64,000 nt of DNA from Stappia sp. ES.058 (GTDB taxonomy: Bacteria; Pseudomonadota; Alphaproteobacteria; Rhizobiales; Stappiaceae), in the NCBI RefSeq assembly GCF_900105595.1, contig NZ_LT629784.1, forward strand, positions 4,507,001 through 4,571,000. Direction: 5' to 3'. The notes beneath the pieces are model-generated. The model saw only the letters and a list, made by a program, of their open reading frames with translations. It searched no databases and was not told where the DNA came from. Below, piece by piece: positions 3,604 to 62,835 of this stretch (position 1 is its first letter; each line of letters opens with the position of its first letter). The translations under genes were made by a program, and so were the position numbers.

Positions 3604-4128
3604 TCAGCCGATATCGGTAAAATCGATCTCGGCCATCAGGTCTCCGGCGAGCTCTTCCAGCGCGTGCGATAGCGACTGCGGCGTAACGTCCACGGGCAGA
3701 ACGACGTCGAGTTCGGCGCGGAACATGCGCTCGCCGCTCATCGAGCCGGCATAGACTTCGGTCGACAGGTTGGTGATGCTCACGCGATGATCGGCCAGCG
3801 ATGCCGACAGCGCCTGTACGATGCCGGCATGGTCCTGGCACATCACGTTGATACGCGCGGCCTGCCCATGCGATTCGCGATCCGTCTCGCCACGCTTGAC
3901 GGTGATGTGCAGACCGCTCTCGGCGAGCCCCGAGAGTGCGCTTTCAAGGGCTGCGATCTGTGTCTTCGGCGCCTCCACCCGCACGATTCCGGCGAACTCG
4001 CCCGCCAGACGGGCCATGGAGCTCTCGATCCAGTTTCCCTCATGGGCGGCAATCGCTTCCGCGATCCGGCGCACCAGACCGGGACGGTCGTCTGCAATGA
4101 CGGTCAGAACGAGTGAAATCGTGGACAT
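3604..4128 (-). CDS. ACT-domain regulator, GcvR-like
   Basis: A 174-residue cytoplasmic protein made of two ACT domains: residues about 4-75 (VLTVIADDRPGLVRRIAEAIAAHEGNW) and about 95-170 (NVMCQDHAGIVQALSASL). This is the architecture of GcvR, the repressor partner in glycine-cleavage control, and of related amino-acid-sensing ACT proteins. No glycine cleavage genes are nearby, so the GcvR role is inferred from family only. The gene is convergent with the DUF1513 gene, ending 5 bp from it. Confidence 0.78.
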   Translation of the reverse strand: MSTISLVLTVIADDRPGLVRRIAEAIAAHEGNWIESSMARLAGEFAGIVRVEAPKTQIAALESALSGLAESGLHITVKRGETDRESHGQAARINVMCQDHAGIVQALSASLADHRVSITNLSTEVYAGSMSGERMFRAELDVVLPVDVTPQSLSHALEELAGDLMAEIDFTDIG

Positions 4129-57569: not shown

Positions 57570-57614
57570 ATGAGTCATCGCAACAAATTTGTTGCGCATT
57601 TCGGCTGTCTATGA
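57570..57614 (+). CDS. Possible 14-residue leader peptide
   Basis: An ATG with AAGGA six nt upstream opens a short frame, MSHRNKFVAHFGCL, ending in TGA at 57612-57614. It precedes the aminotransferase gene by 55 nt, and the 18-bp palindrome lies inside it. It may be a regulatory leader or chance; no run of one amino acid is present that would signal classical attenuation. Confidence 0.25.
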   Translation: MSHRNKFVAHFGCL

Positions 57615-57615
57615 T
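57579..57615 (+). promoter_or_regulatory. 18-bp palindrome and promoter of the aminotransferase operon
   Basis: CGCAACAAATTTGTTGCG (57579-57596) is a perfect palindrome. Its right arm overlaps a TTGTTG -35 box (57589-57594); a TATGAT -10 box (57610-57615) follows after 15 nt. The arrangement suggests repression of the operon 55-80 bp downstream. The short spacer may make the promoter dependent on supercoiling or an activator. Confidence 0.55.
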
Positions 57616-57669
57616 CGTATTGCGAGCATAGCTAAAATATACAATTTAATTGAGATTTTGGGTGGTGCC

Positions 57670-59151
57670 ATGATGTGTGAACGTGTGGCCGGCCCCGGGG
57701 ATGGCCCGGCAGTCGAGAAATTGCGCCGCGCCCGGCTCGCCCTGATGGGTCTGGGGGAGGACGGCGCGCGCATTGGTCCCGGGATGTTTGATGCGGGTGT
57801 TGTGTCCTTCGCGCATGGCGAAGGCGTGCGGCGGCCGTTTCCCGGCGCCATTCGCAATGCCGTTGCCGCCCTGCGCGACGCCGAAGCCGCGCCGATCGAG
57901 AACTACATGTTTCTCAAGCGCTTCCCCGATCTTGAGGCGGAGATTGCGCAAAGCTTTCGGCGCATCGCCGTGCCCGACATCTACGCGCGGAATGTGGTTC
58001 TTGACGCTGGGTCCACCCGCTTGATGGTCGCGGCGCTCGGCCTCATGACGCGCGGCGGTGCCGAGGTCGTGACGTCGCCTGGCTTCTATCATCCGCTGGC
58101 CGGCTGGTGCGGCTATCTCGACCGGGCACTGCATGTGCTGCCAACAACCCGAACCTGCGCCTACAAGCTACGAGCGCAGGAGCTGCGGGACTGGCTCACC
58201 CGGACACGGCCCGCAACGCCGCCGCTTCTCGTTCTGTTCAACCCGACGATGACAGGGGCCGTTTACACGCAAGACGAAATGAACGCTCTCGGCGAGGTGC
58301 TGGTCGAGGCGGACATGCTTGCCATCGAGGACGCCCTGTTTGCCGGCTCGGAATACGACGCCGACGCGACGGGCGGACGTCTTGCCGCATCCTCGGCTGG
58401 CGAGCGCTGCCTCACGGTGGCCGGGGCCAGCAAGCTGCATTGCCTGGCCAATCTCAGGATCGGGTGGGGATGCGGTCCAGACTGGCTGACCGACGCATTG
58501 CAGGACTATGTGACCAGCAGTGCCGCCAGCATACCGCACGTCGCCAAGGCGGCGGCGCTCGGCGCCCTGCGCGCGCCGGAGGCTTTCGTGCGCCGCAATG
58601 TCGAGGAGTGCAGGCAGCGGATCGCGCTTGTGTGCGAACTCGTTCACGGACTGGATGCGCGCCTTCGTGCCGCGACGCGCATGAACGCACCGATGGTGAC
58701 GATCGGTCATGAGGTGGCGGCGGGGCACTCGGTGCTGCTCGAGTTTCCCTGCCTTGTCGGCCACGAACCGCCCGGCGGTGGCGATGTGCGCGACGGCGCG
58801 GATTTGACACGCTTGTTTCTGCACGAGGCCAGGGTTGCCTTCGCGCCGGCGGTCTCGCATGGCTTCGACGGGCCGCGCGTGCGCGCCAATGTGGCCTCGA
58901 TCGGCACGAACCTCACCTATGGGGCGTCCAGGCTGTGGGAGAATTGCGCCGACGAGGACTGGGGCGAGGAACAGGAACGCAGCTTCGACGCCGGCTTCGC
59001 CCAGGCGCGGGAACTGATTTCCTCGACATTCGCGGAGCGCATCGAACCTGCGCTGTTTCGGCTTCTGGACCAGCCGGCGGAATCGGCGCGGCCCCTGCCG
59101 CGCAGGCCTTCTCCGGCTGCGATCGCGGCCGGACAGGGAGCGGCGCTATGA
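57670..59151 (+). CDS. PLP-dependent aminotransferase, fold type I
   Basis: The ATG at 57670 gives a 493-residue class I/II aminotransferase. Cofactor residues can be placed: Asn191 in LFNPTMTG, Asp221 in AIEDALFAGSEY, the Schiff-base lysine Lys255 in GASKLHCLANLRIGW, and the carboxylate-binding Arg405 in PRVRANVASIG. The protein is about 100 residues longer than usual, mostly at the ends. First gene of a coupled operon with HAD phosphatase, dehydrogenase and methyltransferase, followed by the unusual tRNA. It presumably installs or removes an amino group on a small molecule; the substrate is unknown. Confidence 0.87.
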   Translation: MMCERVAGPGDGPAVEKLRRARLALMGLGEDGARIGPGMFDAGVVSFAHGEGVRRPFPGAIRNAVAALRDAEAAPIENYMFLKRFPDLEAEIAQSFRRIAVPDIYARNVVLDAGSTRLMVAALGLMTRGGAEVVTSPGFYHPLAGWCGYLDRALHVLPTTRTCAYKLRAQELRDWLTRTRPATPPLLVLFNPTMTGAVYTQDEMNALGEVLVEADMLAIEDALFAGSEYDADATGGRLAASSAGERCLTVAGASKLHCLANLRIGWGCGPDWLTDALQDYVTSSAASIPHVAKAAALGALRAPEAFVRRNVEECRQRIALVCELVHGLDARLRAATRMNAPMVTIGHEVAAGHSVLLEFPCLVGHEPPGGGDVRDGADLTRLFLHEARVAFAPAVSHGFDGPRVRANVASIGTNLTYGASRLWENCADEDWGEEQERSFDAGFAQARELISSTFAERIEPALFRLLDQPAESARPLPRRPSPAAIAAGQGAAL

Positions 59152-60170
59152 GCCCGCGCACCGACGCGGGCGTCGCCAAATCCGCTGTCGTCATGTCCGC
59201 AAGCCTGCCGCCCGGCCCTGACCTTCTTGAAAAAACTGAAGTTTCCGCCCAGCCGGAGCGGATCGACGGGCTTGGCGCGCTGTTCGATGGTGCGGCCGGC
59301 GCGTCGCCGCGCGCCGCCCTTGTCGATGTCTGGGGGGTTCTCACTGACGGGGCACGGGCCTATCCGCCCGCAATCGATGCGCTCAAGCGTTTGCGCGGGC
59401 GCGGCGTGCGGGTGGCGCTCGTCTCCAACACGTCGCGTCGCGGCGCGGATCTGGCCCGCCTGCTTGAGGGGCAGGGGCTCGACCCGGATCTCTACGATGC
59501 GGTTGTCACCGGCGGGGAACTGGCGTTTGCGCAACTGTCGGGCGAAGTGGCGCGGCGCCGGCGCTGCGGTGGCGACGCTCTGCGCTGTTTGGTCGTTGGA
59601 ACCCAGCCCGGAGGCGATTGGGCGCGCGAGGCCGGTCTCCAGTGCGTCGACACGCCCGACGCGGCGGATCTTGTTCTCGGCTTCGGCGTGCTGGGCGAAG
59701 GCGATCCGCGTGCCGGCGCGCCGCTGCCCACGCTCGACGTGGAGACCCGCCGTCTTCTGCGCGCCGCCGCGCGCTCCGGCCTGCCTCTGGTTCTGACCAA
59801 TGCGGACACCAGCGTCCGCATCGCCGGATCGCTTTATCTCGGCATCGGCGCGCTCGGTGCCGTTTACCAGTCGTTCGGCGGCAACGTTCGCATCTACGGA
59901 AAACCCGCCCCGGAAATGTACGCCGCTGCCTTGAAGGCGGCCGGCATGTCCGATCCGGCCCGCGCCGTGATGATCGGCGACACGCTGGCGACCGATATCG
60001 CCGGCGCGCGGGCCGCCGGCCTTGCGACCGTTCTCGTGACCGGTTCGGGGTCCCATGCCCATGAACTTCATGCCGGCCCCGGCGGCGGGCTCTGTGCCGA
60101 CGCGCTTGCGGATCTTGTCCAGCGCGCGCGGGTCTGTCCGGACCATGTGATGGAGGCGATGCAATGGTAG
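59148..60170 (+). CDS. HAD-superfamily class IIA hydrolase (TIGR01459-like)
   Basis: A 340-residue protein. Motif I is ALVDVWGVLTDGARAYP with the nucleophile Asp60 and tryptophan at the second acidic position, as in the TIGR01459 group. Motif II is in VALVSNTSRRG, and motifs III/IV are in RIYGKPAPEMY and RAVMIGDTLATDIAGARAAG. It is likely a phosphatase for a small phosphorylated metabolite. ATGA overlap with the aminotransferase gene; a 60-residue N-terminal extension is unusual for the family. Confidence 0.85.
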   Translation: MSPRTDAGVAKSAVVMSASLPPGPDLLEKTEVSAQPERIDGLGALFDGAAGASPRAALVDVWGVLTDGARAYPPAIDALKRLRGRGVRVALVSNTSRRGADLARLLEGQGLDPDLYDAVVTGGELAFAQLSGEVARRRRCGGDALRCLVVGTQPGGDWAREAGLQCVDTPDAADLVLGFGVLGEGDPRAGAPLPTLDVETRRLLRAAARSGLPLVLTNADTSVRIAGSLYLGIGALGAVYQSFGGNVRIYGKPAPEMYAAALKAAGMSDPARAVMIGDTLATDIAGARAAGLATVLVTGSGSHAHELHAGPGGGLCADALADLVQRARVCPDHVMEAMQW

Positions 60171-61309
60171 ACGGCAGAAAACGCGACCGCGTCCTGATCT
60201 TCGGCGCCGGCGTCATCGGCGGCCATGTCTGCGATCTGCTGTCGCGCATGGACGACCGCTTCGATCTCGTCGTCGTGGCGCGGCGTCACGATCTGCTCTC
60301 GCAGCGCGTGAACCTGTCGATCACCTCGGCGCTGTGTCTGGGGTTCGATCCGCGCATCGAGGCGGTCGCCTGCGATGTGTTCGAGACCGACGCCTGCGCG
60401 GCGCTGATCGACCGCGTCCGCCCCGACATGATCGTCAATGCAACGAGCCTGCAGACCTTCTGGGAAATCGGCCAGCTTCCGGTCGATGCCTACCGGCACC
60501 TGGAGCGCGCGCGGATCGGGCCGTGGCTTCCCAATCATCTGGCGACCGCGCGCGCCGTGATGCGCGCGGTGCGCACGTCCGGCAGCGCCGCGCTGGTGGT
60601 CAATGCCTCCTTCCCGGATGCGGTCAATTCCGCGCTTGAAACGGTCGGCCTCGCTCCGCATGTCGGCGGCGGCAACATCGCCAACATCGTTCCCACGCTG
60701 ACCCGGGCGGCCGCCCGCCAGCTCGGCGTCGAGCGCGGCGCGCTGACGGTTCATTTCGTCGCCCATCATGTCGCCTGCAACGCGATCTCCTCCTATGGCA
60801 CGCCCGGCGATGCGCCCTACCGGCTGAGCGTCGTGCTCGACGGCGGCGAGGTCGCCGATACGCTCGATCACACGGCGCTCTTTGCCAGCGTGATCGGCGA
60901 GTTCAGGCGCGTGCGCGGCGTCACCGGTCAGATCGTCGCCGCGTCCGGCGTCGCCGCGGTGACGGCTGCCCTGGGCGATCCCGACCGGGAAAGGGCGATG
61001 CACGTGCCGGGTCCCAATGCGCTTCCCGGCGGCTATCCGGCGCTCGTCGGCAAGGGCGAGGTGCGCCTTGCCCTGCCCAACGGCCTGCCGCAGGAGGAGG
61101 CGATCCGCGTCAACCTCGACGGACAGGCAGTGGAAGGCATTTCCGAAATCCGCGCCGACGGCACCATCGTCTACGAGCCAGAGGAAATGGCGGTGCTGCG
61201 CGAGGCTTTCGGCTACGACTGTGCGCAAATGCATGTCGACGAGGTCGACGCCTGGGCGGGCGAACTGCAGGCGCGCTACCGCGCCTATGCCGAACGGGTG
61301 AGCGCATGA
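60164..61309 (+). CDS. NAD(P)-binding dehydrogenase, saccharopine-dehydrogenase-like
   Basis: A 381-residue protein with a Rossmann start, RVLIFGAGVIGGHVCDLLSRM, and the acidic or polar switch region VVVARRHDLL. RPDMIVNATSLQTFWEIG and VVNASFPDAVNSALETVGLAPHVGGGNIANIVP resemble the substrate domain of saccharopine- or opine-type dehydrogenases. Overlaps the HAD gene by 7 nt and the methyltransferase gene by 4 nt. Such an enzyme could make or break a C-N bond on an amino acid. The exact family is uncertain. Confidence 0.7.
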   Translation: MVDGRKRDRVLIFGAGVIGGHVCDLLSRMDDRFDLVVVARRHDLLSQRVNLSITSALCLGFDPRIEAVACDVFETDACAALIDRVRPDMIVNATSLQTFWEIGQLPVDAYRHLERARIGPWLPNHLATARAVMRAVRTSGSAALVVNASFPDAVNSALETVGLAPHVGGGNIANIVPTLTRAAARQLGVERGALTVHFVAHHVACNAISSYGTPGDAPYRLSVVLDGGEVADTLDHTALFASVIGEFRRVRGVTGQIVAASGVAAVTAALGDPDRERAMHVPGPNALPGGYPALVGKGEVRLALPNGLPQEEAIRVNLDGQAVEGISEIRADGTIVYEPEEMAVLREAFGYDCAQMHVDEVDAWAGELQARYRAYAERVSA

Positions 61310-62094
61310 GCGGGGTGGACGCAATGGCGCAGGACGAGACAACCGGCGATGCGACACCGGTCAGCCTGGTCACGGCCAACCGGCGCGGGCGCACCACGAC
61401 GCGGCTGAACGAGATCAACATGCGCTTCGCCGATCTCGCAGGGACGGCGAATTTGCCCGTGCTCGATCTCGGCTGCGCCTTCGGCGTCGCCACCCACGCA
61501 GCCCTTGAGGCCGGCGCCACCGTTCATGCCAACGACATCGACCCGGCGCATCTGGAGGCGACGGCCCGCGACGCGCCGCCGGGGACCTGGGAGCGTCTGC
61601 ATCTGGCGCCGGGCGCCTTTCCCGCAGAGCTCGATTTCCCGCCCGAAAGCCTGTCGCTGGTGCATGCCTCCAATCTGCTCAATTTCCTCACCGGCGAGGA
61701 GATCGAGGCAGGCTTTGCCAAGATCGCAGGCTGGCTGGAACCGGGCGGCCGGTTCCTGTCGATTTCGGGATCGCCCTATGCCGCCAACATCCGCGCGTTC
61801 GGACCCGTCTACGACTCCAATCGCGCCGCCGGACTGCAATGGCCCGGCGAATGCCACGATCTGCCGGCGGTGTCGGACGACCCGACGATCCGCGAACTGC
61901 CGATGTTTCTGCATCTCGTTGACCCTGACGTGCTGACCCGCGCCGCGCGGGCGGCGGGTCTCGTGGTCGAGGAGGCGCGGTTTTTTCATCGTGCGGGGAC
62001 GCCCGACTACATCGCGCTCGACGGGCGCGAGAACGTCGTCTTCGTCGCGCGAAAACCCATCCCCGAGGACGAAAAGGGGCAAATGCATCCGTAG
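61306..62094 (+). CDS. Class I SAM-dependent methyltransferase
   Basis: A 262-residue methyltransferase. Motif I is PVLDLGCAFGVATHAALEAGA (first 20 residues cited: PVLDLGCAFGVATHAALEAG), motif II VHANDIDPAHLEA and motif IV LSLVHASNLLNFL. It is coupled to the dehydrogenase gene by an ATGA overlap. Its last codons (CAT CCG TAG) lie inside the 5' half of the tRNA candidate, so the operon transcript must run into the tRNA. It probably methylates the small molecule built by the operon. Confidence 0.82.
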   Translation: MSGVDAMAQDETTGDATPVSLVTANRRGRTTTRLNEINMRFADLAGTANLPVLDLGCAFGVATHAALEAGATVHANDIDPAHLEATARDAPPGTWERLHLAPGAFPAELDFPPESLSLVHASNLLNFLTGEEIEAGFAKIAGWLEPGGRFLSISGSPYAANIRAFGPVYDSNRAAGLQWPGECHDLPAVSDDPTIRELPMFLHLVDPDVLTRAARAAGLVVEEARFFHRAGTPDYIALDGRENVVFVARKPIPEDEKGQMHP

Positions 62095-62272
62095 CTTAAC
62101 CGGTAAAATGCTGCAGCGGAACGCCTGGAAGGCCTGGCGACTGGGGAATGATTTCACCAGGGCATCGTCATTCCACCCCGACCCGGATCCCGGAACGGCG
62201 GACTTTACGTGGCTTAAGAGCACCAGCTTTGGGAGTTGGTAGGTGCGGGTTCGAGTCCCGTCGGATGCGCCA
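62085..62272 (+). tRNA. Atypical tRNA with UGG anticodon and about 110 extra nucleotides
   Basis: GCATCCG (62085-62091) pairs perfectly with CGGATGC (62262-62268), followed by discriminator G and encoded CCA. After the 5' acceptor strand come TA and GCTTAACCGGTAAA, a D-arm-like segment. The 3' half has an anticodon arm CCAGC-TTTGGGA-GTTGG (62223-62239, anticodon TGG at 62230-62232), variable TAGGT and a T arm GCGGG-TTCGAGT-CCCGT. Between the halves lie about 110 nt, with a hairpin GGAATGA/TCATTCC (62145-62151, 62168-62174). A near-repeat CGTRGCTTAA flanks the insert (62090-62099, 62208-62217). G1-C72 and G73 differ from bacterial tRNA-Pro. It may be a functional variant, an interrupted gene or a pseudogene. 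Confidence 0.65.
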
Positions 62273-62371: not shown

Positions 62372-62383
62372 AAAGGAGGTGAT
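62372..62383 (+). promoter_or_regulatory. Near-perfect Shine-Dalgarno sequence
   Basis: AAAGGAGGTGAT matches the whole anti-Shine-Dalgarno stretch at the 3' end of 16S rRNA, nine bases between GGAGG and the ATG at 62389. No other ribosome binding site I examined in the window is this complete, so the short gene behind it is probably well translated. Confidence 0.85.
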
Positions 62384-62388
62384 TATTC

Positions 62389-62718
62389 ATGGACAAAGTG
62401 ATGGCTATCCGGGAGATCAAGGCCGCGCTCGCTCTGACGAGCTCGCGTCTCTCCGAGACCGCTGCGCCAATGGCGAACCGGTCTGTACCAGCGGCTGGGG
62501 TTCCAGCCGCGATGCCAAAGCTGGCCGTTCCAGCCGCTGCTCCAGCGGGCAAGGGCGTGCCAGTGAGCGGGATGCCACCCGCTGTGCCAGCCAAGGATCT
62601 TGATGATCTGGCTGTCCCAGCGGCGCATCCACTGGCGCGTGATGCGGCGCCAATCGCCAGCTCGGCTCCAATTGCCGCTGGCGCGCTCGCCAAGTTCGAT
62701 GCCGTTCCAGCCCGCTAA
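62389..62718 (+). CDS. Short gene with 14 CCA codons, unknown product
   Basis: A 109-codon frame behind a near-perfect Shine-Dalgarno sequence. Residues 1-26 (MDKVMAIREIKAALALTSSR...) look like a helix without proline; the rest is alanine/valine-rich with 15 proline codons, 14 of them CCA (residues 27, 34, 39, 43, 48, 52, 58, 63, 67, 77, 81, 88, 94, 107), one CCC and no CCG or CCT. In the adjoining methyltransferase gene proline is CCG or CCC. Alanine GCT is also frequent, unlike the neighbours. The gene lies 116 bp after the UGG tRNA. No known family. The complementary strand would read these codons as TGG but has no ribosome binding site. Confidence 0.6.
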   Translation: MDKVMAIREIKAALALTSSRLSETAAPMANRSVPAAGVPAAMPKLAVPAAAPAGKGVPVSGMPPAVPAKDLDDLAVPAAHPLARDAAPIASSAPIAAGALAKFDAVPAR

Positions 62719-62798: not shown

Positions 62799-62835
62799 GA
62801 TGCCCTGGAAATGATGCCCTGGAAACGATGCCCTG
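62799..62835. repeat. Tandem 14-bp repeat
   Basis: GATGCCCTGGAAAT (62799-62812), GATGCCCTGGAAAC (62813-62826) and the partial copy GATGCCCTG (62827-62835) follow directly on each other. They lie in the 353-bp gap 62719-63071 downstream of the CCA-rich gene. No convincing gene is seen here, although a 70-codon open frame (62730-62942) crosses the repeats. Confidence 0.7.

Follow-up and report, generated by a model that had tools for sequence, protein, structure and literature searches.

A candidate dedicated decoding cassette for CCA codons in Stappia sp. ES.058

Does CCA mean proline in every gene of Stappia sp. ES.058? The question is raised by a short gene at positions 62389–62718 of a 64,000-nucleotide (nt) stretch of this genome (the window; positions 4507001–4571000 of the 4.63 Mb single-contig genome), which uses CCA almost exclusively for proline and lies directly behind a tRNA gene with the anticodon UGG. 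An initial annotation had proposed that tRNA and gene form a pair, serving either efficient translation of a CCA-rich peptide or the placement of a different residue at CCA. We find that the tRNA is unusual, that a gene for an arginyl-tRNA synthetase (ArgRS)-like protein, which we call ArgX, adjoins the CCA-rich gene, and that these genes are inherited together. The parts, their conservation and their co-inheritance make it very probable that they constitute a dedicated decoding cassette. The central features are:

62085–62272, + strand: 188-nt tRNA gene with an Arg-type body, anticodon UGG (62230–62232), G1:C72, G73 and an encoded CCA end
62106–62217, + strand: 112-nt insert in the D arm of the tRNA, between D-loop position 21 and the 3′ strand of the D stem
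62372–62383, + strand: Shine-Dalgarno sequence of the CCA-rich gene, AAAGGAGGTGAT, read from the sequence
62389–62718, + strand: CCA-rich target gene, 109 amino acids, 14 CCA among 15 proline codons
63072–64000, − strand: 3′ part of the ArgX gene, which continues past the end of the window to 64814 (580 amino acids)

Codon use in the CCA-rich gene

A recount gave 14 CCA, one CCC and no CCG or CCT codons, in agreement with the initial annotation, and the Shine-Dalgarno sequence that it had placed ahead of the gene is present. CCG and CCC are the locally preferred proline codons, also as annotated: in 58 other open reading frames (ORFs) from the window and 17 kb of adjoining genome, CCA accounts for 63 of 1298 proline codons (4.9%). 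Against this background the binomial probability of at least 14 CCA among 15 codons is 5.8e-18. The background ORFs were chosen mechanically by the GC content of third codon positions (GC3) and include some wrong frames (e.g. 63537–65225, + strand, over the ArgX gene), with the result unchanged.

The ORF is protein-coding, since homologues exist and orthologue differences fall mostly at the third codon position (11, 8 and 29 differences at positions 1, 2 and 3 between loci L037 and L041). Five orthologues are available as DNA (loci L037–L041 of genomes G000, G085, G077, G080 and G082), and in these CCA makes up 14/15, 14/15, 14/16, 14/16 and 15/17 of the proline codons, 71 of 79 in total. All eight exceptions are CCC or CCG codons immediately behind a CCA. 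Homologues that use CCG freely, which had been named as evidence against a special role of CCA, were thus not encountered among the five; more distant homologues (P0005–P0020) are known as protein only, and the codon counts cover the five orthologues. Synonymous variation was seen in none of 14 all-proline columns compared with 19 of 52 other fourfold columns (Fisher one-sided p = 0.0044), and so the codon CCA itself, beyond the residue, appears to be under selection in the target gene. Among named relatives, the gene occurs in S. stellulata (L056, L059), Stappia sp. MMSF_3263 (L057) and a metagenome-assembled genome (MAG) labelled Rhodobacteraceae (L058).

Could the gene encode a proline-sensing leader peptide (attenuator), or its composition be due to chance? 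Attenuators involving proline codons are known, for example the tandem attenuators of mgtCBR (PMC3641672). Here, however, the ORF encodes 109 amino acids and is conserved as a protein, and the probability given above speaks against chance. Moreover, the next gene downstream encodes ArgX and lies on the opposite strand, so that there is nothing to attenuate. Gene order and protein conservation already contradict this explanation, which we find hardly credible.

Within the gene, 10 nt at 62515–62524 (CCAAAGCTGG) are complementary to the anticodon arm of the tRNA. This match was not found in L041 and is therefore probably due to chance.

The dedicated UGG tRNA

ARAGORN calls no tRNA in the window as it stands, and Rfam RF00005 matches the 3′ part of the tRNA alone (62208–62263, 35.4 bits). 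Once the 112-nt insert is removed, ARAGORN calls a canonical 76-nt tRNA-Pro(tgg) with a full cloverleaf and anticodon, a name that goes by the anticodon. The acceptor strands are GCATCCG/CGGATGC and the anticodon arm is CCAGC-UUUGGGA-GUUGG; the gene overlaps that of a methyltransferase upstream, the stop codon of which (TAG) lies inside it. A simple alignment with 42 distinct ordinary tRNAs places the body nearest to tRNA-Arg acg (score 30) and ccg (29), followed by tRNA-Lys ttt (27), and no tRNA-Pro is among the best 15 of the 42. Between the five genomes the tRNA is invariant in 181 of 187 columns (final A omitted) as opposed to 38 of 116 in the spacer directly 3′. The search for the tRNA and CCA-gene pair in other genomes, which the initial annotation had suggested, thus finds it conserved in these five.

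The genome contains 43 ordinary tRNA matches besides this one, and ordinary tRNA-Pro with anticodons UGG, CGG and GGG are all among them. The dedicated UGG tRNA is therefore an extra tRNA and not the ordinary tRNA-Pro. A passage of PMC9976931 lists A73, G72, G35, G36 and G37 as bacterial identity elements for proline, and A20, C35 and A/G73 for arginine. Measured against that list, the tRNA carries G73 and G1:C72 where all three genomic tRNA-Pro have A73 and C1:G72, and it retains G35, G36 and G37 in a loop (UUUGGGA) shared with the genome's tRNA-Pro(UGG). As for the listed arginine elements, G73 agrees, whereas the D loop AACCGGUA gives U20 (hand-numbered) in place of A20, and position 35 is G rather than C.

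These features bear on the simplest explanation, that ordinary proline is attached to the extra tRNA, either by ArgX or, via the anticodon loop, by prolyl-tRNA synthetase (ProRS), and that the tRNA simply makes translation of a CCA-rich proline protein faster. The anticodon loop, with the listed proline determinants G35, G36 and G37, is as such a tRNA would need, and Pro/Ala-rich proteins are common in high-GC genomes. Yet the tRNA lacks the listed A73 and G72, and a gene written in the locally preferred CCG and CCC would need no extra tRNA at all. ArgX, the D-arm insert and the avoidance of CCG and CCC except behind CCA would also go unexplained. We consider ordinary proline quite improbable. 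Of the two purposes initially suggested for the pair, efficient translation is thus the less favoured, and the altered pocket of ArgX (see below) together with the missing A73 and G72 favours a different residue at CCA.

ArgX, an ArgRS-like synthetase with a changed pocket

A second match to PF00750, the ArgRS catalytic family, adjoins the CCA-rich gene in five of 14 genus genomes, and these are exactly the five that carry this gene; in all nine others PF00750 matches at a single place, the housekeeping gene. The pairing of tRNA and gene that had been proposed is borne out by this co-occurrence, by the absence of A73 and G72 from the tRNA and by the synonymous conservation of CCA. Pfam, NCBIfam and PDB sequence searches identify ArgX as ArgRS-like, with PF00750 over its cut-off; against TIGR00456 (argS) it scores 81.6 bits and does not reach the curated cut-off of 261.65. 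A predicted model (predicted local distance difference test score, pLDDT, 88.2; 25-member alignment) was compared with known structures using Foldseek. ArgRS structures make up all of the top 20 matches and mostly align over near-full length, with TM-scores by query length of 0.52–0.71 and root-mean-square deviations (rmsd) of 5.9–8.8; the values are 0.63 and 7.1 for 1iq0, and 0.71 and 5.9 for 1f7u.

An alignment of 40 ArgX proteins, including that of the window, indicates a catalytic site of class I type. The HIGH motif reads HVGHLRN in the window's ArgX, and both of its histidines are present in all 40. The M, K, S and S of a KMSKS-like motif, MKSS in the window's ArgX, are kept in 34, 31, 40 and 40 proteins respectively. 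Tyr347 and Asp351 of yeast ArgRS (1bs2), which we take to read the arginine side chain, align to E340 and A344. The column of Tyr347 contains E (33), Q (5) and L (2), and that of Asp351 contains A (35), V (2), L (2) and S (1); Tyr and Asp do not occur there in any of the 40. R343, E368 and W369 are invariant. Housekeeping ArgRS keeps both Tyr and Asp in all five genomes compared (four with the system, and G083 without it), and in a tree of 35 rows a long branch (support 100/100) divides the ArgX family from five housekeeping ArgRS.

These data are relevant to a second explanation, in which ArgX loads the UGG tRNA with a canonical residue such as arginine or another basic amino acid. Programmed mistranslation like that of the ProRSx/tRNA-ProX systems would be a special case, and PMC10365949 and PMC9437257 provide the precedent of a variant synthetase beside an anticodon-switched tRNA. 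An Arg-like tRNA body next to an ArgRS-like enzyme is what this explanation predicts, and G73 suits ArgRS according to the identity elements listed above. It is opposed by the loss of both presumed arginine-binding residues in 40 of 40 proteins and by the lack of the listed A20 and C35 in the tRNA. It also leaves the linked amino-acid-type operon (see below) unexplained, and proteome-wide mistranslation would need no single CCA-enriched target. On this evidence recoding to a canonical residue is rather unlikely.

A dedicated class IIa synthetase was sought and rejected: PF00587 gives three to five matches per genome in the 14 genus genomes, and no extra match is common to the five carriers. 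G082 alone has a fifth match to PF00587 (class II synthetase), a weak one of 30.6 bits about 30 kb from the CCA-rich gene (G082:C50:107066-107482). Records of the ArgX family include Salinarimonas chemoclinalis, an Oricola MAG and Alkalicaulis satelles; P0025, an ArgX-fused record, contains an IF-2B domain (PF01008). More distant ArgX-like proteins (P0049–P0060, 33–37% identity) include some with variant pocket residues, such as P0060 with Q in the Tyr347 column, and may serve other amino acids or codons.

Co-inheritance and distribution

The CCA-rich gene, the ArgX gene and a dehydrogenase gene of the upstream operon are carried together by the same five of 14 genus genomes. The cassette occupies approximately 7.5 kb between a dipeptidase-like and an mtnA-like gene in the window. 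Seven of the nine system-free genus genomes were examined at this site, G079 and G078 (no dipeptidase match) being set aside, and none of the seven gave a match to a cassette protein there (E 1e-10). In all seven the flanking order is the same (dipeptidase-like, mtnA-like, dn2, pheS-like), and in six of them 79–179 bp separate the matches to the dipeptidase-like and mtnA-like genes, i.e. the flanking genes adjoin. In the seventh (G074, L100 3051–7307) the junction is filled by other DNA, about 4.3 kb long, and is perhaps an insertion hot spot. The names of the flanking genes (dipeptidase, cydA, Kch, mtnA, pheS, pheT) were read from the sequence, with database support for the potassium-channel-like one. 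A dedicated tRNA and a synthetase are thus co-inherited with a target gene, as would be expected of a natural code-expansion cassette that works in the manner of the pyrrolysine system.

Beyond the genus, longest contigs of 9502, 7769 and 8452 recur in the match lists of both ArgX and the CCA-rich protein in a protein database, which suggests that the homologues share contigs in those three records. Among 397 genomes of the order and 385 of the class, the CCA-rich protein was found in G000 only, apart from two weak matches that we do not believe (G239, E 9e-4; G693, E 2e-4); no CCA-rich relative was seen at the G239 locus (L060). A mobile or viral origin was considered and rejected: viral contigs gave no match to the CCA-rich gene, the insert hairpin (see below) or ArgX, and plasmids none to the CCA-rich gene or ArgX.

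The upstream amino-acid-type operon

Four co-directional genes precede the tRNA:

57670–59151, + strand: pyridoxal phosphate (PLP)-dependent enzyme of the aspartate-aminotransferase type, operon gene 1, from NCBIfam and PDB matches
59148–60170, + strand: HAD-type phosphatase-like protein of the TIGR01459 family, start at 59148 or 59193
60164–61309, + strand: NAD(P)-binding dehydrogenase-like protein, from weak, below-cut-off matches to NAD_binding_3 and Sacchrp_dh_NADP
61306–62094, + strand: class I S-adenosylmethionine (SAM) methyltransferase-like protein, Methyltransf_25 at 9.3e-12

The PLP enzyme (NCBIfam search run on 57589–59151) matches PRK06107 (3.7e-22), GntC (8.6e-16) and VioD (1e-14), all far under the curated cut-offs, and PDB entry 6f77 (7.5e-16). 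The HAD protein (run on 58935–60170) matches TIGR01459 at 2e-36 with 125.6 bits, above the cut-off of 103.75. A model of the dehydrogenase was discarded (AlphaFold, pLDDT 47.6). PDB searches with the methyltransferase returned only assorted SAM methyltransferases, and the idea of an azetidine-2-carboxylate synthase was not confirmed by them. The operon genes look like a free-metabolite pathway that the cassette has borrowed.

Relatives of these genes occur in other settings. The dehydrogenase gene is present in seven of 87 family genomes, the five carriers of the CCA-rich gene plus G033 and G049 (loci L076 and L077). ORFs at 3734–12433 of L076 also read as an EamA-like transporter, a LysR protein, a 2-oxoglutarate (2OG)-oxygenase-like and a hydroxyacid-dehydrogenase-like protein. 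On rhizobial plasmids (L078, L079, L080) the genes around dehydrogenase relatives form a recurring uncharacterised metabolite module, with a DMT (drug/metabolite) transporter in two of the three. In Agrobacterium vitis (L084, 6001–6750) a relative of the methyltransferase (~34–36%) lies within a giant gene resembling a non-ribosomal peptide synthetase (NRPS).

In a further explanation, the aminoacyl-tRNA made by ArgX would feed into chemistry that builds small molecules or tailors peptides, and the CCA-rich protein would be a scaffold. Natural-product pathways do use aminoacyl-tRNAs, cyclodipeptide synthases being an example (in a passage of PMC9437257), and the NRPS context of the A. vitis relative would fit. 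However, there is no gene for a tRNA-dependent ligase among the identified genes of the module, and the tRNA cloverleaf is complete with its anticodon once the insert is set aside. The match of anticodon to codon and the conservation of CCA would have to be coincidence. This non-translational use is very improbable in our view.

A possible link between the D-arm insert and the mRNA

Two further features suggest how the tRNA might recognize its message:

62145–62174, + strand: possible hairpin in the tRNA insert (GGAATGA/TCATTCC), its loop containing CCAGGGCATCG, read from the sequence
62799–62835, + strand: three tandem 3′ repeats, GATGCCCTG(G/T)A, with 9–11 nt complementary to the insert loop

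The hairpin region is identical at 30 of 30 nt in the five genomes; the hairpin is absent from the minimum-energy fold of the tRNA. Three repeat copies lie downstream of the stop codon of the CCA-rich gene in all five, and their complementarity to the loop extends over 10, 10 and 11 nt in the window and over 10, 10 and 9 nt in L041. Repeats and insert might therefore tether the tRNA to the mRNA, an idea taken from the complementarity that we consider possible but on balance doubtful.

A model for the decoding of CCA

From the parts, their conservation, their co-inheritance and the selection on the codon, we infer a course for charging, for the nature of the amino acid, for decoding and for tethering. 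ArgX, a class I synthetase derived from ArgRS and changed in its amino-acid pocket, would charge the dedicated UGG tRNA. The amino acid that it loads would be neither proline nor arginine, and is probably a non-canonical one from the upstream PLP/HAD/dehydrogenase/methyltransferase operon. At each CCA of the adjoining small gene, 14 in the window, the charged tRNA would insert this amino acid. CCC and CCG in this gene would still mean proline, and this would account for their occurrence solely in CCA-CCC and CCA-CCG pairs. Finally, the D-arm insert may pair with the three 3′ repeats and so favour the charged tRNA over ordinary Pro-tRNA(UGG), in a manner resembling the selenocysteine insertion sequence (SECIS). 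We are confident, to a good degree, that the residue at CCA in the target gene is not proline. The single reading that fits best, and that we hold with moderate confidence, is a non-canonical amino acid produced by the operon.

Several observations weigh against this model. The main difficulty for recoding, already raised in the initial annotation, is that the dedicated tRNA would have to compete with the normal tRNA-Pro(UGG), and the genome does contain one. CCA also serves as an ordinary proline codon elsewhere, as had been pointed out, even in genes of the cassette (two in the PLP enzyme, one each in the dehydrogenase and ArgX), so that the dedicated tRNA must be excluded from other mRNAs or tolerated there. 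Since the tRNA keeps the listed proline determinants G35, G36 and G37, ProRS might charge it. The ordinary minimum-energy fold of the tRNA is no more stable than those of shuffled sequences (z 0.08). In samples of 397 genomes of the order and 385 of the class, ArgX was found in G000 only, with at most three candidates scored per genome.

The origin of the amino acid meets a difficulty of its own. L076 and L077 hold clusters of dehydrogenase, PLP and HAD genes that lack the cassette tRNA and ArgX; in the 19 kb fetched, neither contained a match to the methyltransferase, the CCA-rich protein or ArgX (E 1e-3), or such a tRNA arm. The dehydrogenase relatives on the rhizobial plasmids (~40–44% identity) are near a TIGR01459 HAD gene and a PLP gene of the alanine-racemase type (‘alr’). 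Because such clusters occur without the tRNA and ArgX, the product of the operon need not be the amino acid of the tRNA.

Support for tethering is modest: an 11-nt match was reached by 2 of 300 shuffles and a 10-nt match by 12 of 300. When 500 shuffles were drawn for each of the five genomes, 1, 7, 7, 8 and 2 of them attained the observed duplex energy. Of 638 window tiles of 200 nt, at least 7 equal the repeat duplex, the tRNA's own antisense tile aside. In L039 another 11-mer matches by chance.

Comparison with known systems

Two natural additions to the 20 amino acids of the code are known, selenocysteine and pyrrolysine, both inserted at stop codons. If the model holds, these marine bacteria assign the ordinary codon CCA to a residue other than proline within a single gene. 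Such a reassignment would extend the code naturally in a new way. The fullest version would make this a third natural code expansion and the first at a sense codon, in which a tRNA with a giant D arm pairs with three 3′ repeats, the residue is made by the linked operon, and the cassette spreads or is lost en bloc; taken whole, we regard it as tentative and somewhat unlikely. In full-text literature searches, which covered few subscription papers and no bioRxiv preprints, no account of such a system turned up. A screen of the Codetta type would miss such a case, as its authors state in a passage of PMC8629427.

The closest precedent is ProRSx/tRNA-ProX of Streptomyces and Kitasatospora, where, as here, the gene of a variant synthetase lies next to that of a tRNA with a switched anticodon; there this tRNA redirects sense codons (PMC10365949). 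That system keeps proline, the amino acid of the parent enzyme, and mistranslates codons generally, and the passage names no dedicated target gene (PMC10365949). The Stappia cassette differs in the ArgRS parentage of its synthetase with the changed pocket, the CCA-enriched gene, the amino-acid-type operon and the 112-nt tRNA insert. ArgX is ArgRS-derived, and no extra PF00587 synthetase is common to the five genomes, whereas a system of the ProRSx kind has a ProRS-derived enzyme that charges proline. Canonical ArgRS and ArgX have the fold and the HIGH motif in common; ArgX is set apart by its long branch, its sub-cut-off argS score and its replaced pocket residues.

The pyrrolysine system operates at a stop codon with a class II synthetase, whereas the Stappia cassette would operate at a sense codon with a class I ArgRS-derived enzyme and includes its target gene. 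Both are compact cassettes of a dedicated tRNA, a synthetase and biosynthetic enzymes (pylTSBCD in a passage of PMC11363022). The likeness to selenocysteine lies in the proposed role of the message. Selenocysteine uses UGA and a special elongation factor. The meaning of that codon depends on an mRNA element, SECIS (in a passage of PMC4513850); in the Stappia cassette the corresponding element is a proposed one, the 3′ triple repeat, which would pair with the tRNA itself.
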